A stretch of 64,000 nucleotides of DNA, taken from the NCBI GenBank assembly GCA_003279685.1, contig QCHA01000001.1:62001-126000 (forward strand), given 5' to 3'. Numbering within the stretch: position 1 is the stretch's first letter; the number at the start of each line of letters is the position of its first letter. The DNA comes from Pelagibacteraceae bacterium AG-390-L03. GTDB lineage: Bacteria > Pseudomonadota > Alphaproteobacteria > Pelagibacterales > Pelagibacteraceae. Under the pieces are notes generated by a model, which made no database searches, was not told where the DNA came from, and worked only from the letters and a program-made list of their open reading frames with translations. A program made the position numbers and the translations under genes. Of the stretch, positions 2,260-16,859 are shown one piece after another.

Positions 2260-2309
2260 AAAATTATCCCCTTGTTGTTTATAATTATTCTAAAAGTGTA
2301 ACTTGAAAT

Positions 2310-3161
2310 TTAAACTATTTCATCCTTAATTGTGTTAGATAAAACCCCAATCTGGGTTACTTCTATCTCAACTTTATCGCCTGGTTTCATGAAAACTGGC
2401 GGATTTCTTTTAAATCCAACCCCTCCAGGAGTGCCCGTAACTAGTACATCTCCTGCTCTCCAAGCCATTGCTCTAGAAACATAGGAAATTAATATTGGGA
2501 TATCAAAAATTAATTGGCTTAATTTTGCATTTTGCATCACTTCACCATTTAATCTTGTTTCAAGAGTAAGCTCTTTATAATCTTTTATGTCTTCTGCAAG
2601 AACCATATGTGGGCCAAAGCTTCCAGTTCTTTCAAAATTTTTTCCCATTCCAAATTGTCTTGTATGCCTTTGCCAATCTCTGATTGTACTTTCGTTATAG
2701 CAAGAATAACCAACTATATGTTTCAAAGCATCTTCTGGTTTAATATGCTTTCCTGCTTCTCCCATAATTACGGCCATCTCTCCTTCAAAATCTAAATTAT
2801 CAGAAGCAATCGGTCTTTGAATTGGTTGATTATGAGCAGTTTGACTTTCAGGAAACCGATGAAAGATAACAGGGTTTTCTTCTACAGTTCTATTCGTTTC
2901 TTTAACGTGCTCACTATAATTTAAACCTACACAAATAATTTTTCCAGGATTTGGGATTAGAGGTAAATACTCAATATCATCTACACTTAAGTTACCTGGA
3001 TTTGTGGATGCATAAGTTTTTGCTTCAGTAATACCATTTTTAGAAATAAGATCTTTTAAAGTGTCTGCTCCTGATATTTTGCCAGTAAGATCTGTAATTA
3101 AATTGTTGTCTATAATACCAAATTTTGGTTCTGAATTATGTTTGTAGGAAATAAATTTCAT
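2310..3161 (-). CDS. Fumarylacetoacetate hydrolase family protein
   Basis: 283 aa; a short N-terminal domain (1-65) and the FAH fold (about 72-280), beginning GKIICVGLNYSEH. The family includes fumarylacetoacetate hydrolases, acylpyruvases and hydratases or decarboxylases that act after aromatic ring cleavage. Metal ligands expected at E-x-E are present as Glu126 and Glu128 (DFEGEMAV). The third ligand is normally Asp in an N-D-x-[ST]-x-R-D-x-Q motif; here the motif reads NESTIRDWQ, with Glu157 at that place. The catalytic loop GxGKxF is intact (GMGKNFER). It is the first gene of the minus-strand unit, 81 nt from the divergent dctQ, which fits processing of the dioxygenase product. Confidence 0.82.
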   Translation of the reverse strand: MKFISYKHNSEPKFGIIDNNLITDLTGKISGADTLKDLISKNGITEAKTYASTNPGNLSVDDIEYLPLIPNPGKIICVGLNYSEHVKETNRTVEENPVIFHRFPESQTAHNQPIQRPIASDNLDFEGEMAVIMGEAGKHIKPEDALKHIVGYSCYNESTIRDWQRHTRQFGMGKNFERTGSFGPHMVLAEDIKDYKELTLETRLNGEVMQNAKLSQLIFDIPILISYVSRAMAWRAGDVLVTGTPGGVGFKRNPPVFMKPGDKVEIEVTQIGVLSNTIKDEIV

Positions 3162-3242
3162 AATTAATACTTTCTGTTTAAAACGTACCTTATATGCTAA
3201 TGTTTAATAAAATTGAAGAGACATTTTTATAAAAAATAAAAA
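3162..3242. promoter_or_regulatory. Divergent intergenic region, FAH gene / dctQ
   Basis: These 81 nt separate two start codons facing away from each other. Promoters for both the FAH-dctP unit and the dctQM-ROK unit must lie here or inside the genes. The stretch is AT-rich and I see no convincing sigma70 pair or operator palindrome. Shared control of the split TRAP operon is inferred from position. Confidence 0.45.
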
Positions 3243-3722
3243 ATGAATAAAATATTTGATTATTCAGCAATCGCTTCTGGGATAATACTTTTATTATTAT
3301 CTGTATTAACTTTTTGTGATGTATTTGGACGAAGATTTTTGAATTCACCAGTTACAGGTACAATCGAATTAGTAGAAATTGGAATGGCTTTAGTTGCATT
3401 TTTAGCAATGCCAAGAGCATTTTTTTTAAACGCAAACGTTTCTGCTGATTTTATCAATAACTTAAATCTAGGAAAATTTAAAACTTATCTAATAATTCTA
3501 AAGTTTATTTTAATGATGATAATAATGTCTTTAATGGCTTACGCTACAACTAAAACTTCAATAAAATTTATGGGAAATGAAAGAGTTACTCTTGACTTAG
3601 AGTTATACTTTTATCCATTTTATTTTATCTCATCATTAGGAATGTGGTTAAGTGTACTTGCAATTATTGTTTGGTTTATAAAAGCTTTACCTGAAACTAA
3701 CTCAAAACTGAGAGATATATAA
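3243..3722 (+). CDS. dctQ: TRAP transporter small membrane subunit (DctQ)
   Basis: 159 aa with four hydrophobic segments (about 8-28, 43-63, 83-103, 125-148) and the DctQ hallmarks FCDVFGRRFLNSP and ELVEIGMALVAFLAMPRAF. This subunit joins DctM in the inner membrane and is needed for Na+-coupled uptake of the ligand delivered by DctP. Its stop overlaps the dctM start (TAATG), showing translational coupling. The matching dctP is on the opposite strand beyond the FAH gene, so the TRAP system is split over two divergent transcripts. Confidence 0.88.
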   Translation: MNKIFDYSAIASGIILLLLSVLTFCDVFGRRFLNSPVTGTIELVEIGMALVAFLAMPRAFFLNANVSADFINNLNLGKFKTYLIILKFILMMIIMSLMAYATTKTSIKFMGNERVTLDLELYFYPFYFISSLGMWLSVLAIIVWFIKALPETNSKLRDI

Positions 3723-5032
3723 TGGACATGGATCCAATTATTAATGGTGGAATAGCTTTTGCAGCAGTCTTAATACTAATGGTATTAAATATTCCAATTG
3801 GAATTGCGATGTTACTGGTTGGATTTACTGGTTTTGCATTAATTTCTGGATTTGATCCTGCTATTTTTGTGTTAGGCACTGCCCCTTTTGATGCGGTTTC
3901 AAAATATACATTATCAGTGCTTCCTCTTTTCGTTTTAATGGGAAATCTTGCTAATAGCGCTAATTTATCAAGGAATTTATATGATGCTGCTTACGCGGTG
4001 GTTGGTCATTATAAAGGTGGATTAGCAATGTCAACTGTTGGAGCGTGTGCTGGATTTGGAATGATATGCGGTTCTTCAATTGCAACAGCAGCTACGATGT
4101 CACAAATGGCAGGACCAGAAATGAAAAGACATGGTTACAGTGATGCTTTGATAAGTGGTTCAATTGCATCAGGTGGAACTCTTGGAATTATTATTCCACC
4201 AAGTGTCATTTTAGTAATTTATGCATATTTAACAGAACAATCTGTTCAAGAACTTTTCTTTGCAGCACTAATTCCGGGATTGATAGCTGTGGTTTTATAT
4301 ATGATTGCAATAAGAGTTTATCTTATAATTTACCCTTCTCATGGTGGGTATGGAAATAAAATGCCACTCAAAGAAAGAATTGCAGCTATTACAAAAGTTT
4401 TTCCAATATTTTTAATTTTTGCAATAATTATGGGAGGTCTTTACCTTGGTTTCTTTACTGCAACAGAAAGTGCTGCTGTTGGAGTAGTACTAGTTTTATT
4501 ATTCATTTTAGTAAGAGGCCAACTGACACTAACTTTGCTAAAAGAAGCTTTATGGACAACAATAAAAACGGTTGGTTCTTTATATTTAATTGTAATTGGT
4601 GCTAGTATTTTTAATTATTTAATTACAGTAACCCAATTACCTTTTGCAGTTGTTGATTTTATAAATCATTTAGAACTTACACCTTTAGGAATTATTTTAG
4701 TTATTTGTGTTATTTATTTAGTCCTTGGAACGGTAATGGACTCTCTTGCAATGTTATTCTTAACTATTCCTGTTTTTTATCCTGTAATAGTTGATGCTGG
4801 AATAGACCCTGTTTGGTTTGGTATTTTTGCAGTGATAGTCGTAGAATTTGGGTTAATTTCACCTCCAGTTGGAATGAATTTATTTGTCATTAAAGGAGTA
4901 ATGCAAAACACTCCTCTACAAACTATATGGTTTGGAACTGTTCCTTTTTTAATCACAGATGTAATTAGACTTGCTTTGATTATTGCATTTCCTGCAATAT
5001 GTTTATACCTACCTAGTTTAATGACACCTTAA
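3722..5032 (+). CDS. dctM: TRAP transporter large permease subunit (DctM)
   Basis: 436 aa, about 12 membrane segments, the normal DctM length. Family landmarks include VLPLFVLMGNLA, SIATAATMSQMAGPEMKRHGY, SGGTLGIIIPPSVILVIYAY and the C-terminal PPVGMNLFVIKG. It forms the substrate channel and Na+-driven elevator of the TRAP system. The start overlaps the dctQ stop by 1 nt and its stop overlaps the next gene (TAATGA), so dctQ, dctM and the ROK kinase form one tight operon. This context is the main hint that a sugar or sugar acid could be among the imported substrates. Confidence 0.92.
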   Translation: MDMDPIINGGIAFAAVLILMVLNIPIGIAMLLVGFTGFALISGFDPAIFVLGTAPFDAVSKYTLSVLPLFVLMGNLANSANLSRNLYDAAYAVVGHYKGGLAMSTVGACAGFGMICGSSIATAATMSQMAGPEMKRHGYSDALISGSIASGGTLGIIIPPSVILVIYAYLTEQSVQELFFAALIPGLIAVVLYMIAIRVYLIIYPSHGGYGNKMPLKERIAAITKVFPIFLIFAIIMGGLYLGFFTATESAAVGVVLVLLFILVRGQLTLTLLKEALWTTIKTVGSLYLIVIGASIFNYLITVTQLPFAVVDFINHLELTPLGIILVICVIYLVLGTVMDSLAMLFLTIPVFYPVIVDAGIDPVWFGIFAVIVVEFGLISPPVGMNLFVIKGVMQNTPLQTIWFGTVPFLITDVIRLALIIAFPAICLYLPSLMTP

Positions 5033-5940
5033 TGACAAAAAAATTTAAAATTGGTATTGATTATGGAGGAACTAAAATTGAAGGGATTCTTTTAGATCCA
5101 AATGGAGAAAAGTTAGAGAGAAAAAGATACTCTTATGATAAAAATTATTCATCAGGTATTTCAACTGTTCAAAAATTAGTAAATGAATTTGATAAAATTA
5201 GCGAAGAAATTTGTACTGTAGGAATTGGTATCCCTGGATTTTCATCTAAAGATACTGGATTAGTTACTAATGCTAATTCCTTGTGGTTAAATGATAAACC
5301 ATTCAAAAAAGATTTAGAAAGTACACTAAATAGAGATGTAAAATTAATGAATGACGCTAATTGTTTTACTTTATCAGAAGCAATTGACGGTGCTGGCAAA
5401 GATTTTAAATCAGTCTTTGGTATTATTATAGGGACCGGTTTTGGTGGTGGTTTATCTTATAAAAAAGAAATTATAGAAGGAGCAAATCAAATTGCTGGAG
5501 ATTGGGGTCATCAACCGCTTCCATACCCAACAATAGAAGAGATTGAAACTCAAATAAGTTGCCCTTCAAATAATTGCGGTAGAGCATTGTGTGCAGAACA
5601 ATTTATGTCTGGAATAGGGTTTGCTGACATTTTTAATAAAAAGAATAATACTAATTTTAATTCTCATGAAATTGTTGAGCTTGATTTAAAGAATGATCCA
5701 AGAGCAAATTTAGAGTTTAATCTTTATGAAGATAGAATGGCTAGATTAATGGCGGTAATGATTGGAGTTTTTGATCCAGATGCAATCATTCTTGGTGGAG
5801 GTATGTCTAATATAGATAGATTATATAAAAATATTCCATCACTGTTACCAAAATATACTTTTTCAAATAAAGTAAAAACTAAAATTTTAAAAAATATTCA
5901 TGGTGACTCAAGTGGAGTTAGAGGTGCAGCTTGGCTTTAA
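5032..5940 (+). CDS. ROK family sugar kinase (fructokinase/hexosamine kinase-like)
   Basis: 302 aa, typical for ROK kinases, which phosphorylate hexoses or amino sugars with ATP. The phosphate-1 loop DYGGTK starts at Asp10. Asp108 in MNDAN is the likely catalytic base. A GTGFGGG motif lies near 134-140. A zinc site is formed by His160 (GDWGH) with Cys177, Cys182 and Cys187; the spacing between His and the first Cys is longer than the ROK consensus. The absence of a helix-turn-helix makes it an enzyme, not a ROK repressor. It overlaps dctM by 1 nt, so its substrate could enter through this TRAP system. Fructokinase, glucokinase and N-acetylhexosamine kinase cannot be told apart here. Confidence 0.8.
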   Translation: MTKKFKIGIDYGGTKIEGILLDPNGEKLERKRYSYDKNYSSGISTVQKLVNEFDKISEEICTVGIGIPGFSSKDTGLVTNANSLWLNDKPFKKDLESTLNRDVKLMNDANCFTLSEAIDGAGKDFKSVFGIIIGTGFGGGLSYKKEIIEGANQIAGDWGHQPLPYPTIEEIETQISCPSNNCGRALCAEQFMSGIGFADIFNKKNNTNFNSHEIVELDLKNDPRANLEFNLYEDRMARLMAVMIGVFDPDAIILGGGMSNIDRLYKNIPSLLPKYTFSNKVKTKILKNIHGDSSGVRGAAWL

Positions 5941-5952
5941 ATAAACTATGAA

Positions 5953-7536
5953 TTACCAAACACCAATCATTATACCATCATCCCTAGTATAATCTCTTTC
6001 TTTAGTCACAAACTCATCAGTAGCTGCAACTCTATTTTTTCTATCAATTATTCTTTTAAGAAGTAATTCTTTCATCTCTTCTCTAATTTTTAAATGATCT
6101 TTTGACCTACCTAAATCATTAAACTCATCTGGATCATTTTTTAAATCAAATAGTTGAGGCTCAAATCCTTTATAATAAATATATTTCCATTCATTATTTC
6201 TAATCATAAAAGCTCTTGCATCGGATGCTCCTAAATTGAGTATTTTACGCGCTTCATTAAATGAATAGTCTATTTCACTAAAAACAAAATCTTTCCAATT
6301 CTTTGGATCTTCTCCTTTAATTATAGGCATTAAAGAATTTCCTTCTAATCTGTGTTTACTAACAGAGCTTTCTACTGCATCTAAAAAAGTTGGAAGTAAA
6401 TCTATTGCTTCAATAAATCTTTTTTCTTTGGTGCCTCTAGTTTTATTTGCATATTCGCTTGGATCATAAATTATCATTGGTACTCTTACAGATTGCTCAT
6501 GAAATAATTCTTTCTCACCTAACCAATGATCTCCTTGGTAATCACCATGATCTGAAGTAAATACGATCATGGTATCTTCCATATGACCAGCGTCTTCTAA
6601 AAATTTGAATAATCTTCCTAAATTATCATCAATTTGTTTAATCAAACCCATGTATCCAGATAAAACTGTATTTCTAACCTCATCTTTTGAAAAGGTTTTT
6701 GAAATACTATTTTCCATAAATGCTTTGTAAACTGGATGATCATTATTTTGTTCTGTATCATTTCTATGCACCGGATAAAATTCATTAGCTGAATACATAT
6801 TATGATAAGGAGCTGGTGCCATATAAGGCCAATGGGGTTTTATATAAGATAAATGTAGAAACCATGGTTTATCTTTACTCTCTTCAATAAATTCCATTGC
6901 ACGATTAGTCATGAAAGCTGTTTCAGAGTGCATTTCTGGAATTCTTGCAGCTTTATTAGAATTTCTCAATCTCCAACCGCTTAAAATTTCTCCATTTTCA
7001 CCTTCAGCAGAATTAGCCCAATCATTCCATGGATTTAGCCCATCGTATCCAAGTTTATTTAACCATTCATTATAAGATAAAGTTTTTTTTGAATTTTTAA
7101 TTTGATTATTTGGATGAAGTCCATCATCTCTTTCATAAGGATCAAAACCTGGTTCACTAACAATTAATCCTATTTCGGTATCTTTAGTAATACCAAGTCT
7201 ATTCATACCTTCTAAATCTGGTCTCATATGAGTTTTACCAACAACACCAGTTCTTATTCCTGATTGACGTAGATAATCTCCAATAGTTAATTCTCCTATT
7301 GGAAGTGGAACTTGGTTCCAAGTTGAACCATGACTAAAAACAGTTCTTCCAGTATAATAAGATGCTCTTGAAGGTCCACATACAGGTGATTGTACAAAAG
7401 CAGATTCAAACTGAACTCCTTTTTTTGCTAAACTATCAATATTGGGAGTTTTTAAATGAGGATGACCATAACAAGAAAGATAATCCCATCTCAATTGATC
7501 AGCCATTATAAAAAGAATATTTCGAATTTTTTTCAT
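5953..7536 (-). CDS. Sulfatase, type I formylglycine-dependent
   Basis: About 527 aa from the ATG at 7536; an ATG at 7560 would add eight residues but lacks a Shine-Dalgarno, and the family usually starts at RNILFIMADQLRWD. The signature C-x-P-S-R is present as CGPSR (Cys61 in the longer form), so formylglycine maturation is required. The first metal ligand is Asp in MADQ, the later ones in TSDHGDYQGDH; KPHWPY supplies the conserved Lys/His. There is no signal peptide, so it should act in the cytoplasm on imported sulfate esters. Length and layout resemble choline sulfatase or heparan/arylsulfatases. It lies 54 nt behind the exported glycosidase on the same strand, which argues for sulfated sugars. 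No maturation enzyme is in the window. Confidence 0.88.
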   Translation of the reverse strand: MKKIRNILFIMADQLRWDYLSCYGHPHLKTPNIDSLAKKGVQFESAFVQSPVCGPSRASYYTGRTVFSHGSTWNQVPLPIGELTIGDYLRQSGIRTGVVGKTHMRPDLEGMNRLGITKDTEIGLIVSEPGFDPYERDDGLHPNNQIKNSKKTLSYNEWLNKLGYDGLNPWNDWANSAEGENGEILSGWRLRNSNKAARIPEMHSETAFMTNRAMEFIEESKDKPWFLHLSYIKPHWPYMAPAPYHNMYSANEFYPVHRNDTEQNNDHPVYKAFMENSISKTFSKDEVRNTVLSGYMGLIKQIDDNLGRLFKFLEDAGHMEDTMIVFTSDHGDYQGDHWLGEKELFHEQSVRVPMIIYDPSEYANKTRGTKEKRFIEAIDLLPTFLDAVESSVSKHRLEGNSLMPIIKGEDPKNWKDFVFSEIDYSFNEARKILNLGASDARAFMIRNNEWKYIYYKGFEPQLFDLKNDPDEFNDLGRSKDHLKIREEMKELLLKRIIDRKNRVAATDEFVTKERDYTRDDGIMIGVW

Positions 7537-7590
7537 ACCTTTTAAAAGGTAATTGAGCATAATTTGATTGTCAATTATAAGAATAGAATT

Positions 7591-8607
7591 CTAAAAATCT
7601 AAGATTTTTTTAGATCCATCACTGTATGTAAACTCTACTTGTTTTTTTGAAATACTTTTAATTGATGCAAATCCATCATATTCAGCAATAAATTCATTTA
7701 ATTTTTTTCTGCCCTTTTTGCTCATTTTTTTTCCTGGAGCATTTACACCGACATCGATAATCAACTCAGCTCCATTTAAAAATGCTTTTACCCAAGCTTT
7801 TACTGGAGCGCCACAAGTCATAGCTTCGGTTAACCAAATAGGTTTATTTACATCTACACTTTTTAGTAAGGCTGCAAATTCATCCACCCATAGTTCTTTA
7901 TCACACTGTCCGTCTGGACCACTTATGTGGTGAATATTTGCAATATCAAAATGATCTTTAATTTTTGGTAAAACTGATTTCCAATATTTTTTATTTTCAG
8001 GAAACATTCCTGCAGCACCCGCCATTACAATGACGGCATCTGGCTGCTTTTCCTTAATTACTTTAGAAGAAAAATTAAAAATTTCTACAAAGTCTTCCTT
8101 ACTTCCTTTAAAAAACATTTTAAACTCTGGTTCATTCATGACATCCCAATATTTTATAGGTTTGGTTAATCCAGGCATATCATTTGACCCATCTCCGTCA
8201 TAACGATCAACCAATTGTAGAAGGAAGTTTTTGTAGTCATCCATAGAGCAAGGTTTGCTTAGGTATTTAGTAAATTTTTTTCCAAAAGGACTTCTTGCTT
8301 TTTTTCTTTTACAAGATTTTTGCTCCCAATTTGCATGAGGCCAAATAGTAGCTAAAATTGTTTGGTTGTGCTCTTGAGCATAAACAACATATCTATCTAC
8401 ATCTTCCCAAGTAAACTTTCCTTTTTCTTTTTCAATGTGGTTCCAAATAAATGGACCTGGATGAGGTCTGACCCATTGATTATCTTTACCTCGCATTTTT
8501 TCATCACGCATTTCTGTTAATTCACCAAATCTTGATTCTGAATATGAAAAATTTATCGAGAAAATAAAAAAAATTAAAATATTTAAAAAAATTATTTTCT
8601 TTTTCAT
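7591..8607 (-). CDS. Exported glycoside hydrolase-like protein, clan A TIM-barrel type
   Basis: 338 aa. A signal peptide covers residues 1-24 (cleavage near SYS-ES). The fold features are those of retaining clan GH-A enzymes (GH5/10/39/42 relatives). These are WNHIEKEKGKFTWEDVDRYV, in which the barrel begins, then KYWDVMNEPEF with the NEP acid/base Glu159, and KPIWLTEAMTCG with the likely nucleophile Glu261. Between them are ANIHHISG and a PDGQC loop. Specific family and substrate are not determinable by eye. The gene starts 15 nt behind the Met/Gly/Ala-rich protein gene and precedes the sulfatase, so it probably belongs to the same transcript and works outside the inner membrane on a polysaccharide. 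Confidence 0.7.
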   Translation of the reverse strand: MKKKIIFLNILIFFIFSINFSYSESRFGELTEMRDEKMRGKDNQWVRPHPGPFIWNHIEKEKGKFTWEDVDRYVVYAQEHNQTILATIWPHANWEQKSCKRKKARSPFGKKFTKYLSKPCSMDDYKNFLLQLVDRYDGDGSNDMPGLTKPIKYWDVMNEPEFKMFFKGSKEDFVEIFNFSSKVIKEKQPDAVIVMAGAAGMFPENKKYWKSVLPKIKDHFDIANIHHISGPDGQCDKELWVDEFAALLKSVDVNKPIWLTEAMTCGAPVKAWVKAFLNGAELIIDVGVNAPGKKMSKKGRKKLNEFIAEYDGFASIKSISKKQVEFTYSDGSKKILDF

Positions 8608-8622
8608 TTAAAAAATTAATTT

Positions 8623-11145
8623 CTATTTTGGGTCTCCTGGTCCTGGTCCTGGTCCTGGTTCTCCTGGTTGTCCTGGGTTTCCTGGTTGTCCTGGGTTTCC
8701 TGGTTGTCCTGGGTTTCCTGGATTTCCTGGTGCACCTGGTTGACCCATTGCACCTTCTACAGCGCCTCCGATATCTCCCATAGCTCCGCCCATAGCATCA
8801 CCACCCATGGCACCACCCATCATGTCGCCCATGGCATTACCTGGATTACCCATGGCACCTGGTTCACCCATAGCTCCACCCATGTCACCCATGTTTCCAC
8901 CTATTTGTCCTCCTGCTTGACCTGCCATAGCTCCAGCCATTGAGCCTCCCATTACGCCGCCCATTCCTTCTTTCATAGCTCCACCCATGGCTTCACCCAT
9001 AGCTCCATCGCCCATACCTTCCATTCCCATTGCAGCTCCCATTGCATGAGAACCCATTGCTGAGGCAGCAGCTCCTTGAGCAGACATCGCTGCTCCCATT
9101 GCAGCACCTGCTAAACCTGAGCCTGCTTCGTTAGCTGCCATAGCAGCTCCCGCTACTGAACCCATTGCTTTTCCAGGATCAATTCCTGTTCCCATCGCAG
9201 CAGATACTTGTCCTAAATTCATTCCACCTTTCATCATGGAACCGTCCATTGCGCCCTCTAAACCCTCTTTGGGGTTTCCCATGATATCTCCAAGTTTAGC
9301 TCCTTCTGGACCAGCTGCTAAACCCATGCTGGCTGCCATTTCAGGATTCATTTGAGCATTTAAATCCATTTCACCCATTCCTACTAAACCACCACTCATA
9401 GCTGCTAATCCCATGTCACCACCTTCCATTCCCATGGCACCACTTAATTCTTTCATTCCTTCAGCGCCCATTGCTGCCATTGTACCTTGGTTAACCAAAC
9501 CGACTTCCATCATATCGCCCATTTCTCCAACAGACATATTTCCATCTTTTGCCATATTAGCTATACCTTGAACTGCTTTGCTTCCTAATCCTGCAACATT
9601 AGTTGACATAACTGAAGTGATATCTATTCCGGCCACTCCAGCTGCTCCCATACTAGCGACCATACCTGGTGTTAACCCTGTTTGTGCGGCCATGTCTGCC
9701 ATTCCCAATTTATCCATTGTTCCAACATCCATTCCTGTCATATTTGCCATAGCTTCACCCATTTCAGCTTTTTCCATGCCTTGCATAACGTCACCCATCA
9801 TTTGTCCAGATGGAGCGTCACCTGTCAACATAGCCCCCATAGCTGTTGCTGTCATTCCTTTGGGAGGAGCCATTGCACCAGGCAAACCTCCAGCTAAAGA
9901 TGGTTTTGCCATAACCATAGCTCCCATCATCATGCCTGACTCACTAACATTCTCTGGCATTTCTAAAGCCTGTGGTCCAGCTTCTCCCATTTTACTAGCA
10001 AAAGAATCTTTTATTTCTGTACCTTTTTGGAGTGCATTTTTTTCTTTAGGAGCTTTTCCTGATATAGCCTGACTTATCATTCCTACTGTTCCTGACATTG
10101 CGCCTGAAATACCTACTTCTGGATTTGCAAATGCAGTTGATAATGTTTTAGCCATATCTTCCATTCCCATATCAGCCATTGCTTTTCCAATTTCTTTCAT
10201 TCCTTCCACACCTTTCATGCCCTCTGCCATATTTGCCATACCTTGCATTCCGATACTGCCTTCCATGCTTTTCATCATGTCTTCACCCATGCCTTTTGCA
10301 CTCATTGTTGCAACTATAGCGCCTGTCATAGTTTGACCCATTTTTCCCATTGCTTCAGGATTAGCTGCTAAAGTTTCTAGTGCCGCAGTTGCTGCGCCCA
10401 CAGGTAAAGCTTCTAAAGCTCCTGCCATCATTGCAGGATTCATTCCCATCTCAGCAACATTCATGGATGCAAAATTTCCAGTATCAAAATTTGCCATATC
10501 AAAGTTTGCAGTTCCAGTAATAGCTTCCATATCTACCATTCCAGCATTAGCAAGTCCTTCCATCGCAGTACCCATTCCAATTCCTTGAGCATCAAGTGAT
10601 CCCATCATTCCTTTTGCATCAAATCCAGCAGCACCAAGAGCATTCATTTGTCCTGCCATTTTTTGCATAGCAACAACTTTTCCAGCTCCCATTTGTCCAG
10701 CTATACTAGATAAAGCTGCCATTTCTTCTGGCGAAAAATCTTTTTCGAAATCTATTCCTGTCATATCTAGTGCAGTTGGATCAGGAATAGCTCCTAAAGC
10801 CATATCTGTTACTCCTTCAACTAATGACATTGCTTGAACTGCTGAAGTGATATCTCCTTTTGCTAAACTCTCTGTTGCAAATGACATTGCACTTTCCGCT
10901 TGCGCTATTGAAACATCTAAAGCTTTACCAATATCACTTTTAGCTTCACCTAACGCTTCAGTTGCCCCTGCTATATTTTCAGAAACTTTTCCAGCATCTG
11001 AAGCTAATTGATCAGCTGCAGCTTGCGCTGAACTTCCTGCTGCTTCAGAAATTCCTGACATGGAAGTAATATCATTTGCTTTAGCTGTTATATTAAAAAA
11101 TAATAAAAATATTATTAAGTTTTTTACAATAATTTTTCTAATCAT
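8623..11145 (-). CDS. Exported Met/Gly/Ala-rich low-complexity protein with collagen-like C-terminus
   Basis: 840 aa; I do not recognise a known family. A signal peptide (about 1-23, ending ITAKA-ND) is followed by an Ala/Ser-rich helical stretch (about 25-120). Then come some 660 residues dominated by Met, Gly and Ala in short motifs such as MGxAM, GGAMG and AAMG. The last 35 or so residues are collagen-like Gly-X-Y triplets rich in proline (GNPGQP units, ending GPGPGPGDPK). I find no Cys, Trp or Tyr, one His, and no Arg after the signal peptide. It overlaps the 181-aa gene upstream by ATGA and precedes the glycosidase. A fibrous surface layer, adhesin or matrix protein is a guess; repeated methionines might also bind metal or scavenge oxidants. 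Expression of so Met-rich a protein is striking in a SAR11-type cell. Confidence 0.85.
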   Translation of the reverse strand: MIRKIIVKNLIIFLLFFNITAKANDITSMSGISEAAGSSAQAAADQLASDAGKVSENIAGATEALGEAKSDIGKALDVSIAQAESAMSFATESLAKGDITSAVQAMSLVEGVTDMALGAIPDPTALDMTGIDFEKDFSPEEMAALSSIAGQMGAGKVVAMQKMAGQMNALGAAGFDAKGMMGSLDAQGIGMGTAMEGLANAGMVDMEAITGTANFDMANFDTGNFASMNVAEMGMNPAMMAGALEALPVGAATAALETLAANPEAMGKMGQTMTGAIVATMSAKGMGEDMMKSMEGSIGMQGMANMAEGMKGVEGMKEIGKAMADMGMEDMAKTLSTAFANPEVGISGAMSGTVGMISQAISGKAPKEKNALQKGTEIKDSFASKMGEAGPQALEMPENVSESGMMMGAMVMAKPSLAGGLPGAMAPPKGMTATAMGAMLTGDAPSGQMMGDVMQGMEKAEMGEAMANMTGMDVGTMDKLGMADMAAQTGLTPGMVASMGAAGVAGIDITSVMSTNVAGLGSKAVQGIANMAKDGNMSVGEMGDMMEVGLVNQGTMAAMGAEGMKELSGAMGMEGGDMGLAAMSGGLVGMGEMDLNAQMNPEMAASMGLAAGPEGAKLGDIMGNPKEGLEGAMDGSMMKGGMNLGQVSAAMGTGIDPGKAMGSVAGAAMAANEAGSGLAGAAMGAAMSAQGAAASAMGSHAMGAAMGMEGMGDGAMGEAMGGAMKEGMGGVMGGSMAGAMAGQAGGQIGGNMGDMGGAMGEPGAMGNPGNAMGDMMGGAMGGDAMGGAMGDIGGAVEGAMGQPGAPGNPGNPGQPGNPGQPGNPGQPGEPGPGPGPGDPK
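8663..8716 (-). repeat. Three perfect 18-bp tandem repeats encoding (GNPGQP)
   Basis: The plus-strand unit CCTGGTTGTCCTGGGTTT occurs three times head to tail. It encodes the collagen-like Gly-Asn-Pro-Gly-Gln-Pro repeat of the 840-aa protein. A shorter 6-bp run (GGTCCT, Gly-Pro) adjoins it at about 8638-8659. Perfect identity of the copies suggests recent expansion by slippage and possible length variation between strains. Confidence 0.9.
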
Positions 11146-11687
11146 TCAGTTGCCTCTATTTTTTCTTGTGCTTTAATAGTTGCTGCTCTTTGAGCATTAA
11201 CTTTTGCAGTTGCAATTTGTTTTTTTAGATTAGCTAAAACTGCTGCACGTTCAGCTATTTCAGGTGTCAATTTTTTTGCTTTCTTTTTCTTTTTTTTTTT
11301 ATTTTTTTTATAAGCTGCATGAAGCATTTTACCTGTTGCCCAAAATTTCAAAATAGCTTCAGAGGATTTAGCTTTAGGAGAAATATTTAAGCTCATTCTC
11401 ATCGCTTCTCTTCCTTTTTTTAAACCTTCTAAAGTTTCAACTTTTGCTCTCTTATCATTAAGCATCTCGTTAAATAACGCTTCAAAGTAAGCCATATCTC
11501 TTATCATGTGATGTTGATATTTATTGAGTTGTCCTTTTCCTTTAACAAATCTTGCATAAACTTTTTTTCCAGCCTCACCTTGTTTTTGTTTACTTTTAAC
11601 TAAACTCTCATGAAACATTCCTTTAGGGTAATCTATATTTTCATGAATGAATGCGGCAGGTCTCTCATTTTCTGGCCAGTCACCCAT
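11142..11687 (-). CDS. Lys/Ala-rich exported protein of unknown function (start uncertain)
   Basis: 181 aa from the first ordinary ATG. The reading frame stays open to 11837 and the upstream part looks like a signal peptide plus a C-x-x-C motif (see the next entry), so the true protein is probably about 228 aa. Visible parts are a WPENERPAAF segment, a helical middle (KYQHHMIRDMAYFEALFNEM), a run of nine lysines near residue 138 and an Ala-rich helical C-terminus. No family is recognised. The stop overlaps the start of the Met/Gly/Ala protein gene by ATGA, so the two are translationally coupled and likely partners. The basic Lys tract could pair with the acidic, Met-rich partner, but this is speculation. 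Confidence 0.7.
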   Translation of the reverse strand: MGDWPENERPAAFIHENIDYPKGMFHESLVKSKQKQGEAGKKVYARFVKGKGQLNKYQHHMIRDMAYFEALFNEMLNDKRAKVETLEGLKKGREAMRMSLNISPKAKSSEAILKFWATGKMLHAAYKKNKKKKKKKAKKLTPEIAERAAVLANLKKQIATAKVNAQRAATIKAQEKIEATE

Positions 11688-11837
11688 TTTTTCATATTTT
11701 TTACAATAGATGCAATCTTTCTCTTCTTTATCTTTTTTTTTTGCAGCTTCTAAATTGGATGATGATAAAATTATAATTGTAAAAATAATTACAATTTGAA
11801 ATAAAAAATTTAGATATTTAAATTTAACTTCGCCTGG
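11688..11837 (-). other. In-frame upstream extension coding a signal peptide without a normal start codon
   Basis: Upstream of the ATG at 11687 the frame is open for 50 codons after a TAG at 11838-11840. From the GTT at 11828 it reads VKFKYLNFLFQIVIIFTIII, then LSSSNLEA and AKKKDKEEKDCIYCKKYEK. That is a textbook signal peptide (basic start, long hydrophobic core, SNLEA cleavage site) followed by a CxxC. No ATG, GTG, TTG or CTG occurs in frame. A likely promoter (TATAAT on the minus strand at 11889-11894) and an out-of-frame ATG at 11850 lie just upstream. Either a rare start codon is used, or a single indel separates the ATG at 11850 from the rest. Confidence 0.6.
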
Positions 11838-11840
11838 CTA

Positions 11841-11971
11841 AACCTATCATAAGTAAACGTTACACCTAATTGTCGCAGTTAAAAAGCCATTATATACTAG
11901 ATAAATATTGAGTTTTAATTATTTTATTCAATTAATACGTGTATCTAAAAAATGTTAAGATTGTTAATGAA
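11841..11971 (-). promoter_or_regulatory. Intergenic gap with probable promoter for the 181-aa/collagen-like/glycosidase unit
   Basis: These 131 nt lie between the last lyase-like gene and the signal-peptide extension. On the minus strand a perfect TATAAT (complement of 11889-11894) is seen in the context CTAGTATATAATGG. The -35 region is weak. An initiation site near 11882 would give a leader of about 30 nt to the ATG at 11850. I see no strong terminator hairpin here, so readthrough from the upstream nine-gene unit is possible. Confidence 0.5.
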
Positions 11972-12979
11972 TTAAAAAGGTGCTGGACTTCCTTTTCTAT
12001 AACTAAAACTTTTACATTGAGCAGGTTGATTAGGAAATTGTTTACAAAGTGAAACATCTACTACTCCATGAACTTGGGATTGGTTTTTTAGTTGACCTGT
12101 TATTTCATCACAACCATTCCACAATTCATCACAACTATCTGCCTTACCAACATTAGAGTAACGAATTGTTGCATCATTTATCTTTAACCCAGCATTAGTA
12201 GCATCATCCATATGATTTCTATAAGGTCCAAATTTAAATCTTGCACTTGTGGCACCAGCCATCATATCACCAAAATAGCTTGATCTAAGTTTGCCATCGA
12301 TCCATAAATGAAGAAATCCATCTTTGGCCCACTTTGCGTTAATAAGTATATTCACCCACTTTCCTTTTAGTGGAGAATAATTATGGTCTAAATCAACAGC
12401 ATAAGCATCAAAGTAATAAGCTTCAGCCTTTTCATTTTTTTTAACTATATAATTTGGAGTATTAAACATCCATCCAAAGCTATTATTAGATAAGTTAAAA
12501 GAAGGTCCTACAGTCATTTCACCTTTGCCGTATAGCATTTTAAAATCAAATAATGATAAATTATGCTTTGGCGTATTAACATCTTTTGACAAGAAATACC
12601 CTACTCTATACCACTTAGTTTTGCCTTTTTTTGTAGTATGTTTGTAAGGTTCCATAATTTGAAATCTCTGAGCATGACCTGGTTTACCCCATCTATTCCA
12701 ATCATCTTTGTGTCCTTTATCAGAATACTTTAAATTAAATTCAATTCCCTGCTCAGCAACACCCATGTGATCTTCAATTTTATCAAAAAACTTATAAAGA
12801 CCATTTTTATTAGGAGCATTTCTATTATTAAAAACCATTTTATTTTTTGACTGAGCTTTTAAAACATAACGTCCAAAATCTTTCTTCTCCTGCTTTTTCA
12901 TATTTGTATGCCATTTTCCAGCATAAGAAAGTGATGGCAGTAGAAGAAAGGATAAAAAAATAATTAAAGTTTTTTTCAT
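11972..12979 (-). CDS. Exported polysaccharide-lyase-like protein, paralogue 1 (most diverged)
   Basis: 335 aa with signal peptide (1-20, SLSYA-GK). It shares the beta-jelly-roll layout of the next three genes: an early strand with AQRFQIMEPYK, then WYRVGYFLSKD, GKWVNILINAKW, GFLHLWIDGKL and FGPYRNH. This architecture matches the heparin-lyase-I-like polysaccharide lyase family (Pfam Polysacc_lyase, PL13-like). It lacks both landmarks seen in its siblings: the Q-F-H of the cleft is replaced (FDFKMLYG), and the terminal Y-x-D-E-[IV]-R strand reads RYSNVG. It may therefore be a glycan-binding rather than a cutting protein. It carries extra C-terminal cysteines (CDELWNGC, SLCKQFPNQPAQC) suggesting disulfides. 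Start overlaps the previous gene by 4 nt; last gene of the unit. Confidence 0.65.
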   Translation of the reverse strand: MKKTLIIFLSFLLLPSLSYAGKWHTNMKKQEKKDFGRYVLKAQSKNKMVFNNRNAPNKNGLYKFFDKIEDHMGVAEQGIEFNLKYSDKGHKDDWNRWGKPGHAQRFQIMEPYKHTTKKGKTKWYRVGYFLSKDVNTPKHNLSLFDFKMLYGKGEMTVGPSFNLSNNSFGWMFNTPNYIVKKNEKAEAYYFDAYAVDLDHNYSPLKGKWVNILINAKWAKDGFLHLWIDGKLRSSYFGDMMAGATSARFKFGPYRNHMDDATNAGLKINDATIRYSNVGKADSCDELWNGCDEITGQLKNQSQVHGVVDVSLCKQFPNQPAQCKSFSYRKGSPAPF

Positions 12980-13863
12980 TTTTGAATTTCAATTTCTTTA
13001 CAAGAGTATCCTAGATCCTTAAGTTTAAGTTTTTTGCATGACTTTGCTATTCTTATTTCATCATAATAAGCTATTTGGGTTGCATCAGGCTCAGGTGTTC
13101 TGTGTATAAATGATCTATATACGCCAACATGAAATTCTGTCCGCTCTCCTTTGTGTTGGGTTGACCCTTTCCAATGAAATTTCAACTTTCCATTGATCCA
13201 AATTTTAAAAAAACCATCTTTTTTATATGTCCACTTCGTATTAACCAAAATATCATTCCATTTACCGTGCATGTCTGTCTTATCTAATAATTTTATTGGA
13301 ATATTATTTCCTCCGACATATCTATCAACTTCAATCCAATAACCTCCAGCATCTTTTTTTGACTTATTAAACTGATTTTCAAAAGCAAAAGCTGGGGGAT
13401 AATCACCATCATTATGAAATTGAGCCAACATTGTTTTAGCAGGATAAATTATTTTATAATCGTCTGGTAGATATAAAGACCAAGCTGACCATGTAGTTTT
13501 TTTATTAACACAACATATTAATAACTCAACTCTTTCTCTATTATTTCTTGAGTCCCAGCCCCATCCGTCTCCATCTCTAACTTCAAATCGTAGTGACTGT
13601 TTACCAAATCTAACTGGATGATTATCTGACTTATTTACTATTTTAACAACATGTTTTCTAGAATCTTTATCTGAGTCTAAAATTTTTTTATTTGTTACTC
13701 TCCAATTATTAGGTTTATTATCTTCTCCTCTATCTATTACTTTTTTAAATCCTTGAACTATATCTTTATTCTTTTTGATTTCTTTAAGGACTTCTTCGAC
13801 ACCAGCAAAACTAATATTGCCCCAAACTAAAAATAAAATGATAGTTGTTAAAATTTTTTTCAA
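12976..13863 (-). CDS. Exported polysaccharide lyase family protein, paralogue 2 (heparin lyase I-like)
   Basis: 295 aa; signal peptide 1-20 (ISFA-GV). Characteristic strands in order are RFGKQSLRFEVRDGDGWGWD, NNRERVEL (about 107-114), WSAWSLYLPDDY, LAQFHNDGDYPP with Gln148 and His150, GKWNDILVNTKW, GFFKIWINGKL, FHVGVYRS and AYYDEIRIAKSC. These fit the heparin-lyase-I-like polysaccharide lyase family, which cleaves uronic-acid-containing glycans by beta-elimination. The retained Gln/His in the cleft and the closing YYDEIR suggest it is one of the two catalytically competent copies. ATGA overlaps join it to both neighbours. Substrate is unknown. Confidence 0.75.
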   Translation of the reverse strand: MKKILTTIILFLVWGNISFAGVEEVLKEIKKNKDIVQGFKKVIDRGEDNKPNNWRVTNKKILDSDKDSRKHVVKIVNKSDNHPVRFGKQSLRFEVRDGDGWGWDSRNNRERVELLICCVNKKTTWSAWSLYLPDDYKIIYPAKTMLAQFHNDGDYPPAFAFENQFNKSKKDAGGYWIEVDRYVGGNNIPIKLLDKTDMHGKWNDILVNTKWTYKKDGFFKIWINGKLKFHWKGSTQHKGERTEFHVGVYRSFIHRTPEPDATQIAYYDEIRIAKSCKKLKLKDLGYSCKEIEIQK

Positions 13864-14795
13864 TTAATTACTCCAACTTTATCCTTGGTTTTGCCCCTTC
13901 TAACTTCATCAAAATAAATTACGGTCGTTGGAACTTTATCTAACTCATAATAGCTTTTACATTTTTTATAAATATTTATTGAAGTTTTGTGTCCTGGATA
14001 CTTTTTTTTTTGTAATCTTTGTAAAGCTTTATACTCTTTGGCAGAGATTTTTCCTTTTTCATCAAAACATTTTTCTATTTTATCAACATTTATATAATTC
14101 AAATATCTAGTAATTCCAGTTCTATAAACACCAAACTTTTGATAGACTTTACTTTTTGATTTTGTAGGTCCCACATAATCATATTTTAGTTCGTTATTAA
14201 TCCAAATTTTAAAAAAACCATCTTTTTTTTTGGTCCACTTAGCGTTTATTAATACATCAAACCATTTACCCAATACTTCTTCATTTGAAAGTAAGTTACG
14301 CTGGTTATAATCTTCATCTTTGTCTGTTATTGTTCTAACAATCGAGTATCCATCTTTTAGTTCTTTAAACATAAAAATTGGATTTCCTTCCTTTTGATGA
14401 AATTGACCAAAAGCATTACTTAGAGGATATAAATTTTTATGATCTTTTGGAAAATATATTGACCATGAAAACCAATACTCACCTTTAGTCATGTGACTTT
14501 GACCTCCACTTAATTCATGTCGTTCTCTATCATTTTTACAATCACTCCATCCTGTATCTCTTCCACAATCGCCTTGTCTTACTTCAAATCTAATTGATTG
14601 ATTGCCTGCTCTAACTGGATGACCCTCATCTTTATTAACTATTTGATACCCGTATTTTTTATAATATTTACCAGTTAAGCTCTTATAGAATTTAGAGCCT
14701 GAGGATACATCTTTAGGAAGTTTTACTATTTTTGCCGCAAAACTATTTCCACTTAATAGCAAGCTAAGAAACAGAATACCTAAAAAATTTTTCAT
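13860..14795 (-). CDS. Exported polysaccharide lyase family protein, paralogue 3 (heparin lyase I-like)
   Basis: 311 aa; signal peptide 1-20 (NSFA-AK), similar to that of paralogue 4, which supports tandem duplication. Landmarks are RAGNQSIRFEVRQGDC, NDRERHELSGG (about 88-98), WFSWSIYFPKDHK, FGQFHQKEGNP with Gln131 and His133, GKWFDVLINAKW, GFFKIWINNEL, FGVYRTG and VIYFDEVRRG. It keeps every landmark of paralogue 2, so it is a candidate active lyase. An insertion of about 30 residues rich in Lys and Tyr precedes the final strand. It starts 10 nt behind paralogue 4 and overlaps paralogue 2 by 4 nt. Confidence 0.75.
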   Translation of the reverse strand: MKNFLGILFLSLLLSGNSFAAKIVKLPKDVSSGSKFYKSLTGKYYKKYGYQIVNKDEGHPVRAGNQSIRFEVRQGDCGRDTGWSDCKNDRERHELSGGQSHMTKGEYWFSWSIYFPKDHKNLYPLSNAFGQFHQKEGNPIFMFKELKDGYSIVRTITDKDEDYNQRNLLSNEEVLGKWFDVLINAKWTKKKDGFFKIWINNELKYDYVGPTKSKSKVYQKFGVYRTGITRYLNYINVDKIEKCFDEKGKISAKEYKALQRLQKKKYPGHKTSINIYKKCKSYYELDKVPTTVIYFDEVRRGKTKDKVGVIN

Positions 14796-14805
14796 TTATA
14801 CAAAT

Positions 14806-15720
14806 TTAATCAACTGGTTTATTTTGCTTGTTAATATTAACTTCATCTTTAGCTTCACCTACTCTAATTTCATCATAATAAATTGTTGCAGTAGGAATTT
14901 TGACCTCCCAATCAATTTTAAAAGGATAGGTTATAACTGTTTCACCTCCATCAGGATCATCAAAATATTTAATTTTTTTTTGTTTCCAATTTTTATTATT
15001 GTTCTTTAGCCATTTTCCAACATTAGGTCTATAGATACCATATCTAAAAGTGAGTTTACCTGCTGAGTTTCCCATATTTGAATTTGATTCTTTAAATGTT
15101 TTTTTTTTAACTAATGGGTATTTATGTGAACAAGAATCTATATTTTCCCCATTTATCCAAGTTTCAAAAAATTTGAATTTTTTATCCTGAGATTTTTCTT
15201 TAGCATAGTCTGTTTTAATTATTATATCGGTCCATTCTCCCTTTTTGAAATTGCCACAATATAACTTTTTTTTAACAAGGCTATGATTCACTCTGATATG
15301 AAATCCTGCACCTCTAGTATACATTTCCCATATAGGCATACCAACACCTTTCATTTTGACTTGCCCTATTAACATTTTACTACCTACCCAACTCATCTCA
15401 AAGTCTTTAGGAAAAAAAATACTCCAAGCATAGTAAACACTATTTCCTGGTTTTTTTTTTGATTTATGAGAAAGTTTTAATTCTCTTTCTGTCCTTTGAG
15501 CTGACCATTTACAGTCTTGTTTGTTGCATGACCCGTGAGATAATATAAATTTTTGTGATTGTTCTCCATCTCTAATAACATCCTTATTCACCATAAAATG
15601 TTCTTTTGTAGGTTTAGCTGTTAAGTGATGATTTTTAGTTTTTTTAATTGTTATGTCTATTGCATGAGAATTTGAACTTAACAAAAATCCAAGAATAAAA
15701 ATCCCTAAAATTTTTTTCAT
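14806..15720 (-). CDS. Exported polysaccharide-lyase-like protein, paralogue 4
   Basis: 304 aa; signal peptide 1-20 (NSHA-ID). It follows the family pattern: RDGEQSQKFILSHGSC, QRTERELKLSH, YYAWSIFFPKDFE, LIGQVKMKGVGMP, GEWTDIIIKTDY, FETWINGENI, FRYGIYRPNV and TIYYDEIRVGEAKDEV. The cleft motif seen as Q-F-H in paralogues 2 and 3 is Q120-V-K122 here, so the likely catalytic His is gone while the scaffold and the YYDEIR strand remain. A substrate-binding or altered-specificity role is plausible. It overlaps the serine-hydrolase stop by 4 nt. Confidence 0.68.
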   Translation of the reverse strand: MKKILGIFILGFLLSSNSHAIDITIKKTKNHHLTAKPTKEHFMVNKDVIRDGEQSQKFILSHGSCNKQDCKWSAQRTERELKLSHKSKKKPGNSVYYAWSIFFPKDFEMSWVGSKMLIGQVKMKGVGMPIWEMYTRGAGFHIRVNHSLVKKKLYCGNFKKGEWTDIIIKTDYAKEKSQDKKFKFFETWINGENIDSCSHKYPLVKKKTFKESNSNMGNSAGKLTFRYGIYRPNVGKWLKNNNKNWKQKKIKYFDDPDGGETVITYPFKIDWEVKIPTATIYYDEIRVGEAKDEVNINKQNKPVD

Positions 15721-16859
15721 TTACCTTTTTTAATTACAGAATGAACAATTTTTTTCCAATTGTAGTTTTTGTAAAGTGAATTAACGACAACTATTCTTTT
15801 ATTATCTAAATCAATCAAAATTTGCTGACCAGCAAATCCACTCATTCCTATAATTTTTCTAGTTTTTTTAATTCCAAAAATATCAAAGTGGAATTGACCA
15901 CCATAACTTTTTGTATAAAGTCCAACATCATCTGCTTCTTTTGTATTATCTTTCTTTTTAACTCTATTTTCGTAAATGGTTTTTAAATATTTACCAGCAC
16001 ATGTATCATTGTGCCAATCATCCATGATTGCTTTTGCTATTCTTAAATAATCATATCTATTTGCATAAAAAGAATATCTTGCTGAAATAAAATCTGTTCT
16101 TAAATACTTTTTTGATCTTTGAAGGTAAACACTTTTTTTTACCCCCACATGTTTATTGTAAACTTTGTTTAATAACTTTTCCCAATCATCACCTGTTTTA
16201 AATTTGACATAGTTCAAGATAACATTCGTTGTCAAAGCACTGTAGTTGTAAATTAGTTTACTTTTTTCAGCACCCCTCAGGTATTCATTCATTACTTTCA
16301 TTAACCCAATTACATTCACATTTTCATTCATTGGACCTTTTATTCTATTATCTGAGCCAACATTTCTTCTATCACCAACCCATTTTTGATCTCCAGCTTT
16401 CATATTTAAAAGGTCAAGTAATATTGAGTCCTCGTAAAGTGTATTTTGAATTAAAGGCCAATCATTTAATTTTACATTAACACTATCGATATAACCCTCA
16501 CAAATAGCATGTCCTGTTATATAGGATGTTAAACTTTTACCCATTGAGTGTGATGGTAGTAAACCATCAATTATTTTATCACCTTCAACAGATGTTGGTA
16601 TATCAGACTCATCAATCACTATTTGATCATTTTCAAATAGTAGGTAACTAATAATTCCAGTTTCTTTATTATTTTTAAATTCTTTTAAAACATTCTTGTC
16701 TTGTCTTAAGTTTGATTGAAACTTGTAATGATTTTCTGATCCTTTAATCTCCCATCCTTTGTAAGCTAAAAGTGGATAGTCCCAACTATTTTTATTTTTT
16801 TTGGCGTAAGCCGTACTTGAAATGATAAATATAAAAAAAATTATTAATAATTTTTTCAT
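15717..16859 (-). CDS. Exported serine hydrolase, class C beta-lactamase/esterase fold
   Basis: 380 aa; signal peptide 1-19 (STAYA-KK). The S-x-x-K active-site motif is Ser105-Met-Gly-Lys108 (LPSHSMGKSL). The second motif is YNYSALTTN, where Tyr takes the place of the class C Y-x-N. The third box is GMSGFAGQ. This is the beta-lactamase-related serine hydrolase family (EstB/AmpC fold), whose members are esterases, peptidases or transesterases. In this glycan-like operon a role in removing acyl groups from polysaccharide is reasonable but not shown. It abuts DUF1501-A (1-nt overlap) and overlaps lyase paralogue 4. A penicillin-binding function is possible but unlikely given the neighbours. Confidence 0.8.
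   Translation of the reverse strand: MKKLLIIFFIFIISSTAYAKKNKNSWDYPLLAYKGWEIKGSENHYKFQSNLRQDKNVLKEFKNNKETGIISYLLFENDQIVIDESDIPTSVEGDKIIDGLLPSHSMGKSLTSYITGHAICEGYIDSVNVKLNDWPLIQNTLYEDSILLDLLNMKAGDQKWVGDRRNVGSDNRIKGPMNENVNVIGLMKVMNEYLRGAEKSKLIYNYSALTTNVILNYVKFKTGDDWEKLLNKVYNKHVGVKKSVYLQRSKKYLRTDFISARYSFYANRYDYLRIAKAIMDDWHNDTCAGKYLKTIYENRVKKKDNTKEADDVGLYTKSYGGQFHFDIFGIKKTRKIIGMSGFAGQQILIDLDNKRIVVVNSLYKNYNWKKIVHSVIKKGK

Follow-up and report, generated by a model that had tools for sequence, protein, structure and literature searches.

A SAR11 gene pair with a methionine-, glycine- and alanine-rich exported member and a predicted +1 frameshift

Results

A methionine-rich exported protein and its basic partner

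The 64,000-nucleotide stretch of DNA analysed here (the window: positions 62,001 to 126,000 of contig QCHA01000001.1, Pelagibacteraceae bacterium AG-390-L03) carries two overlapping genes, A and B, of which B encodes an exported protein rich in methionine, glycine and alanine and A a basic exported partner (Table 1). A first description made from the letters of the DNA (the sequence-only reading) had picked out B as an exported frame of 840 residues with this composition, and both points hold: the frame is intact, to which we add its strand, with the signal peptide placed by eye, and residue counts bear out that Cys, Trp and Tyr are absent and that no Arg lies past the signal peptide, the sole Arg being residue 3. 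That description covered B alone; gene A and its out-of-frame start are additions of the present work. Met accounts for 14.2% of the mature protein, Gly for 19.7% and Ala for 17.6%; beyond the signal peptide there are 116 methionines and a single His. SAR11 bacteria, to which this genome belongs, dominate ocean bacterioplankton. The SAR11 strain HTCC1062 is unable to use sulfate and relies on reduced organic sulfur, as described in the available part of one source (PMC5069961), and in view of this dependence an exported protein with so many methionines is a costly choice that calls for explanation.

Table 1. Features of the A–B locus and its downstream neighbour, in window coordinates
Feature	Coordinates	Strand	Basis or remark
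Gene A, basic exported partner	11142..11850	(-)	4-base overlap with start of B; body frame 11837-11142
Zero-frame opening of A: ATG ATA GGT TTA GCC AGG CGA AGT TAA	11824..11850	(-)	read from sequence
Purine-rich run ATAGGT, possible Shine-Dalgarno-like stimulator (putative role)	11842..11847	(-)	AAAGGT in 11/17 loci
Proposed +1 shift site GCC AGG C (P-site GCC, rare A-site AGG)	11832..11838	(-)	GCC AGG then C/T in 17/17 loci
Gene B, 840-residue exported Met/Gly/Ala-rich protein	8623..11145	(-)	ATG to stop, intact frame
Signal peptide of B, residues 1-24	11074..11145	(-)	hydrophobic stretch ending AKA, followed by ND; by eye
N-terminal domain of B, about residues 45-195, common to distant cassettes	10561..11013	(-)	profile of 8 N-terminal domains of other forms
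Met/Gly/Ala body of B, about residues 196-800	8746..10560	(-)	composition, constraint
Variable Gly-Pro tail of B, residues 801-840	8626..8745	(-)	repeat arrays, faster evolution
Exported GH10-like protein, directly downstream of B, frequent neighbour outside the core pair	7591..8607	(-)	Pfam GH10 E 4.9e-4, below cut-off

Tandem arrays in B are confined to the tail and two short places. The body has no clean repeat, giving a weak 11/22-residue signal at residues 25-240 and a 4-residue signal at residues 640-760. Residues 741-840 contain 12 consecutive Gly-X-Y triplets, and a run of at least 12 arose in none of 1000 shuffles of that stretch (mean 4.1).

The body of B is conserved and its tail is variable

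Searching the GTDB genome collection by pattern returned relatives of B at 36 loci, all titled Pelagibacteraceae, which with the window make 37 members of what we call the MGA form, the Met/Gly/Ala-rich type of B (alignment A7 omits four of these 37 rows: L024, L025, L032 and L043). The frame is open in all 36 relatives, four of which start inside the gene at a contig end, and the composition recurs, with Met at 12-16%, Gly at 18-27%, Ala at 15-20%, no Cys or Trp in any, and Tyr and Arg nearly zero. Measured against the window copy, the median ratio of nonsynonymous to synonymous substitution (dN/dS) is 0.11 over residues 25-660 (36 pairs) and 0.52 in the tail (35 pairs). The body is under strong purifying selection, and the Gly-Pro tail is variable. 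The sequence-only reading had noted that a frame interrupted in close relatives would suggest drifting low-complexity sequence; given the low dN/dS and the 36 open frames, such drift is ruled out for the body.

A collagen-like tail, also proposed there, survives in part: the run of triplets is real in the window copy but is not a feature of the family, in which the longest run has a median of 7 (range 4-29 across the 37 members) and sits in the body rather than the tail in 12 of them. Three homologues of ordinary composition, a class taken up below, end in ...NQPGYxAIDPxTG... and have no triplets. With its run short, variable and often outside the tail, B was rejected as a bacterial collagen.

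Methionines mostly stand where ordinary homologues have aliphatic residues

Over residues 25-660, mean column identity is 0.90 for Met, 0.89 for Gly, 0.93 for Pro and 0.94 for Phe, and 0.70-0.73 for Lys, Asp and Glu. Relatives replace the window's methionines in this region with Ile (110 times), Leu (93), Val (44), Pro (30), Ala (27) and Gly (21); Thr appears only four times and Lys never, although both are also one base away, and across the relatives of B there is one exchange to His and none to Cys. A B profile run against 397 genomes of the order gave 17 matches, three of which (L088-L090) share 33-36% identity with window B and the same partner gene A as the MGA form, with about 3% Met, 6.5-8.2% Gly and 7.6-9.0% Ala. 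At the columns of window methionines (residues 25-740) these three hold Ile, Leu, Val, Met or Phe in 250 of 298 cells (84%), against 368 of 1706 (22%) elsewhere, and at window Gly and Ala columns about half of their cells are Ser, Asn, Glu, Lys, Thr or Asp. Because the ordinary homologues hold hydrophobic residues there, Met in B probably occupies mostly core positions. The residues at matching columns further show the composition of B to be a re-dressing of an otherwise ordinary protein, largely Met for Leu, Ile and Val and Gly or Ala for polar residues, in which either state could have been first.

Intermediate composition is absent among the tabulated B members (L084, a profile match at E 0 with no tblastn match to the MGA query, was left out of the composition table), and in a tree of 41 rows long branches divide the MGA and ordinary forms, their placement being flagged as unsure by the program. 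Ordinary-composition B from L091, L092 and L093 contains four or five copies of a motif like SLITSNAMAETLG, which the window protein lacks.

The sequence-only reading had named hydrophobic packing in a fibre, metal binding and oxidant scavenging as possible uses of so much methionine. Packing is strongly supported by the Ile/Leu/Val replacements together with the ordinary homologues, a fibre being only a candidate form. A metal-binding role finds no support in a pattern with one exchange to His, none to Cys and positions that do not turn over freely. If B were a sacrificial antioxidant, whose methionines absorb oxidants and are restored by periplasmic MsrP as in MrpX-type proteins, its 14% Met in an exported protein and the MsrP encoded by the window's genome (G000, E 1.2e-136) would be expected; against this, the methionine positions are fixed and exchanged for Ile, Leu and Val, the ordinary forms manage with 3% Met, no msrP was seen beside B or elsewhere among the open reading frames of the window, and MsrP was found in only one of four MGA genomes tested (in G000; not in G004, G198 or G282; the genomes are 87-96% complete). 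We regard this as very improbable, and the exchange pattern and the patchy MsrP leave both the antioxidant and the metal role disfavoured. MsrP was also not found in G054, G230 and G102. The MsrP homologue of the near-complete genome G106 (L156) contains one in-frame TAA.

Window B carries 0.114 side-chain nitrogens per residue; the ordinary forms have 0.18-0.20, and 22 other proteins of the window span 0.13-0.47. Such values could reflect element economy, a very abundant exported protein having shed nitrogen-rich side chains under scarce nitrogen and available organic sulfur with its material properties secondary, but putting Met in place of Leu, Ile or Val spares no nitrogen and spends sulfur, an element that SAR11 needs in reduced form according to the available part of PMC5069961. 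We consider that account unlikely and view the very low nitrogen content of B as a by-product of its re-dressing.

A and B belong together as a cassette

Gene A lies directly upstream of B in all 32 loci with upstream sequence to judge, and a C-x-Y-C motif is invariant in its 28 aligned rows (alignment A2 omits five of the 32 A genes: L011, L034 and L037, which are cut, and L036 and L043, which are broken). In each of 14 split pairs A carries a net charge of +14 to +30 and B one of -19 to -114. The N-terminal domain of B was found by profile in proteins of 317-1648 residues with quite different bodies, each adjoining an A homologue (short in L116), and a profile of eight such domains built without any MGA sequence matches that of the window (E 7.7e-18, database size set to 100). 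Two loci taken for weak MGA matches, L007 and L008, turned out to be distant cassettes. Three natural fusions of 578, 590 and 672 residues consist of A plus part of the B N-terminal domain, matching the A profile at E 4.8e-35 to 5e-29 and the B N-terminal profile at E 1.5e-11 to 2.6e-10 (scores 33-37, against 6.4 for the best of 600 shuffled decoys). Since a gene starting MLYFAYGSNL adjoins a split pair in one genome (G248, L114) and a fused form in another (G022, L130), the split and fused forms seem to take each other's place at a single site.

At the level of sequence, these comparisons show A and B inherited as one overlapping or adjoining unit, sometimes fused, and predict a two-gene exported system observed to date in the SAR11 family alone. 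In a class-wide sample the A profile matched none of 142 genomes and the B profile none of 288, the window's genome aside, the listed genomes including a few of the SAR11 family (G101, G102). Because the genome sets hold many incomplete single-cell genomes, presence counts are lower bounds. At L112 3382-13793 (G054) two A genes lie close by, each with an adjoining B-like frame, and L113 holds a third cassette of the same genome. The distant B proteins of L112, L113, L114, L115, L117 and L132 often end in C-x(2-4)-C; MGA-type B has no Cys.

Neither A nor B falls in a family in searches of Pfam and of PDB sequences, nor, for the copies of the window, in NCBIfam, in line with the sequence-only reading, which had recognised none for B. 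The best Pfam values are at chance level, such as Perilipin at E 0.11 in five of 37 B members; SHOCT reaches E 0.0025 in a single distant A, short of its cut-off. Phage and viral contigs yielded no homologue of A or B in a search whose sensitivity is limited by a low-complexity filter and the use of peptide patterns. These searches bear on whether the cassettes might be an exported contact weapon or adhesin, A carrying or anchoring B and the variable B body acting on other cells, for which bodies that differ greatly behind a conserved N-terminal domain, the occurrence of several cassettes in one genome and a patchy presence would all be fitting. Searches of Pfam, NCBIfam and PDB sequences recognised no toxin, adhesin or immunity-like domain (PADLOC was not searched, and no search aimed at an immunity gene was made), and MGA-type B has low complexity and no evident conserved polar active site, which makes this reading, to our minds, an improbable one.

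The start of gene A is out of frame

In 17 loci, the window included, the head of A has no in-frame ATG, GTG or TTG, save for one TTG past the hydrophobic stretch in three of them. What all 17 have is an ATG in another frame, followed by 2-6 codons and then TTA GCC AGG with C or T next, after which the reading reaches a stop within 0-4 more sense codons. This site is exactly where the body frame becomes open, because the TAG within TTAGCC closes it upstream. Past the site, mismatches by codon position run at 0.37/0.22/0.41, and nonsynonymous differences (pN) are proportionally fewer than synonymous ones (pS) in 132 of 136 pairs. Seven of the 37 loci are unjudgeable (no A motif or contig end); the remaining 13 have an ordinary in-frame ATG in 12 cases and a split A in one (L036), and the distribution of the frameshift type on the B tree needs one or two changes. 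AGG is rare, with 22 occurrences among 11,746 codons in 30 window genes, and the 22 tRNAs found, an incomplete list (it has, for example, no alanine tRNA), include a UCU arginine tRNA and no CCU one.

The combination of an other-frame ATG with an invariant TTA GCC AGG implies a programmed +1 frameshift, which we predict at the head of A in 17 genomes including that of the window. Were there no shift, A would have a non-standard start codon in its body frame, and the short frame that begins with ATG would be an upstream leader peptide, consistent with a zero frame that ends 0-4 sense codons past AGG in 17 of 17. Yet no near-cognate start column is common to the 17 loci (the best reach 14 and 13, within the signal peptide's hydrophobic core), from CCA on the body frame stays open under protein-type constraint, and the extra codon in L021 and the longer openings in L014 and L016 keep the frame relation. 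A leader peptide thus seems doubtful.

Several candidate elements around the site were rejected. A GGCAG...CTGCC hairpin, tried as a downstream stimulator, is visible in several loci only, the window not among them. Ahead of A, neither an S-adenosylmethionine (SAM) riboswitch nor any other Rfam element reached the gathering threshold in the window, where matches at 11500-12100 are at chance level. The string TTTAGCCAGGY occurs in 31 of 101 genomes at 35 places, 30 of which were read: three are gene-A sites (L060, L065, L069) and many others lie inside long open frames, none A-like by eye, so that it was dropped as a general element.

Neighbouring genes

The GH10-like gene follows B directly in 25 of 36 loci. 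Further downstream, a sulfatase at 5953-7560 (-) (Pfam E 1.3e-53) adjoins genes at 1246-5940 that by eye encode a ROK-like kinase and a TRAP-like transporter, possibly a unit for sulfated sugars. At 11972-15720 (-) four adjoining exported proteins match Pfam Polysacc_lyase PF14099 (E 2.1e-8 to 4.5e-23), which is unexpected for SAR11, and this neighbour set differs between relatives. Two tandem gene pairs at 16859-22021 (-), whose presence varies among relatives, each join a DUF1800 gene (one tested, E 1e-72) to one that we take to be DUF1501-like.

Discussion

Comparison of the A–B locus across genomes leads us to propose, with moderate confidence, that A and B form a lineage-specific exported structural complex in which B is the variable part and the dose of both is set by a +1 shift. 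We suggest that the two proteins are exported separately and bind through their opposite charge, the N-terminal domain of B serving as the shared docking part. The body of B would be a helical, Met-packed, flexible and nitrogen-poor structural polymer outside the inner membrane, whether a periplasmic lattice, a surface layer or a fibre, and would provide both the bulk material and the strain-variable part of the complex; the low nitrogen, low complexity and size of B agree with a structural protein made in large amounts. Ribosomes of the frameshift clade would start at the out-of-frame ATG, pause at the rare AGG after GCC, skip one base and enter the body frame of A, and through coupling at the ATGA overlap of four bases the rate of this shift would set the dose of B as well as that of A. 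Taken further, interchangeable SAR11 A–B cassettes might each build a strain-specific exported structure, the B of one clade being a Met-packed, nitrogen-saving material dosed by a +1 shift at GCC AGG, a picture that we offer only tentatively and think unlikely. If dosing at a rare AGG is true, expression would respond to the supply of arginyl-tRNA or to growth state.

Several observations weigh against the proposed structural complex and its dosing. AlphaFold models are poor, with a mean predicted local distance difference test (pLDDT) of 41.8 for window B and 54.2 for the ordinary form L089, in which residues 71-260 are mainly helical with block means of 62-91, except for 42 at residues 121-130. 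Run with models of this quality, fold searches of the PDB give matches at background (VIA Z at best 5.3, Foldseek E at best 0.095) and name no fold among those listed. At the shift site, the purine run AAAGGT is exact in only 11 of 17 frameshift-type loci, and no downstream RNA structure is common to all 17. The cassettes are patchy: among the 148 genomes of the order with completeness of 90% or more, A was found in only 16, spread over two of nine genera, which makes it accessory. Finally, L036 (7350-7998) and L043 (7257-7944, in an A-rich run) have gene A split by another break of frame, and L116 (6906-7484) has a short gene A, which may reflect sequence error, decay or more recoding.

The ordinary-composition homologues make B a natural experiment on the effect of exchanging Met for Ile, Leu and Val in a protein. 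The shift site of A, if true, would be a compact bacterial +1 frameshift at a sense codon, and the A–B cassettes would be an unnamed exported SAR11 system with variable parts. Literature on SAR11 and methionine-rich proteins, on SAR11 surface and giant proteins (by title) and on Pelagibacter and programmed frameshifting, in a search that mostly did not cover subscription titles, gave no account of B, the cassettes or the shift, and the available parts of work on SAR11 habitat genes and prokaryotic frame transitions make no mention of A–B cassettes or the shift site.

Among known systems, abductin is a Met-rich structural protein of molluscs. B was rejected as an abductin-like elastomer, as Met tandem repeats do not run through its body. 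The Met-rich, insoluble matrix protein NU-5 of the pearl oyster aggregates and has been proposed to form a scaffold, in the available part of its description (PMC7591529). To that extent NU-5 and abductin resemble B as exported structural proteins with Met-rich regions; they differ in being animal proteins with no sequence link found to B, which has ordinary-composition homologues and no clean tandem repeat in its body. MrpX-type proteins are periplasmic Met-rich scavengers that work with MsrPQ. B is likewise exported and Met-rich, and differs from them in its fixed methionine positions, their replacement by aliphatic residues and the absence of a window MsrP gene beside it. With bacterial collagen-like proteins the window copy has in common a Gly-X-Y run in its tail, which in B is short, fast-evolving and missing from the ordinary forms.

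For the predicted shift in A, likeness to known sites concerns only its possible working. In prfB, which encodes RF2, a +1 frameshift occurs with a purine-rich run three bases before the P-site codon, as given in the available part of one account (PMC12421855). On that account the site in A differs from prfB in having the sense codon AGG rather than a stop in the A-site, a P-site GCC that would re-pair poorly and a weak purine run, and resembles it in a purine run three bases before the P-site, a slow A-site codon and a predicted +1 shift near the start of the gene. Yeast offers a second comparison in the +1 sites GCG_AGU_U of Ty3 and CUU_AGG_C of Ty1, as quoted in the accessible portion of PMC5009743. 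The site in A is set apart from these by being bacterial, by lying at the 5' end of a gene and by having no 3' stimulator identified; in GCC_AGG_C/U, it would combine an Ala P-site codon as in Ty3 with a rare AGG followed by C as in Ty1.

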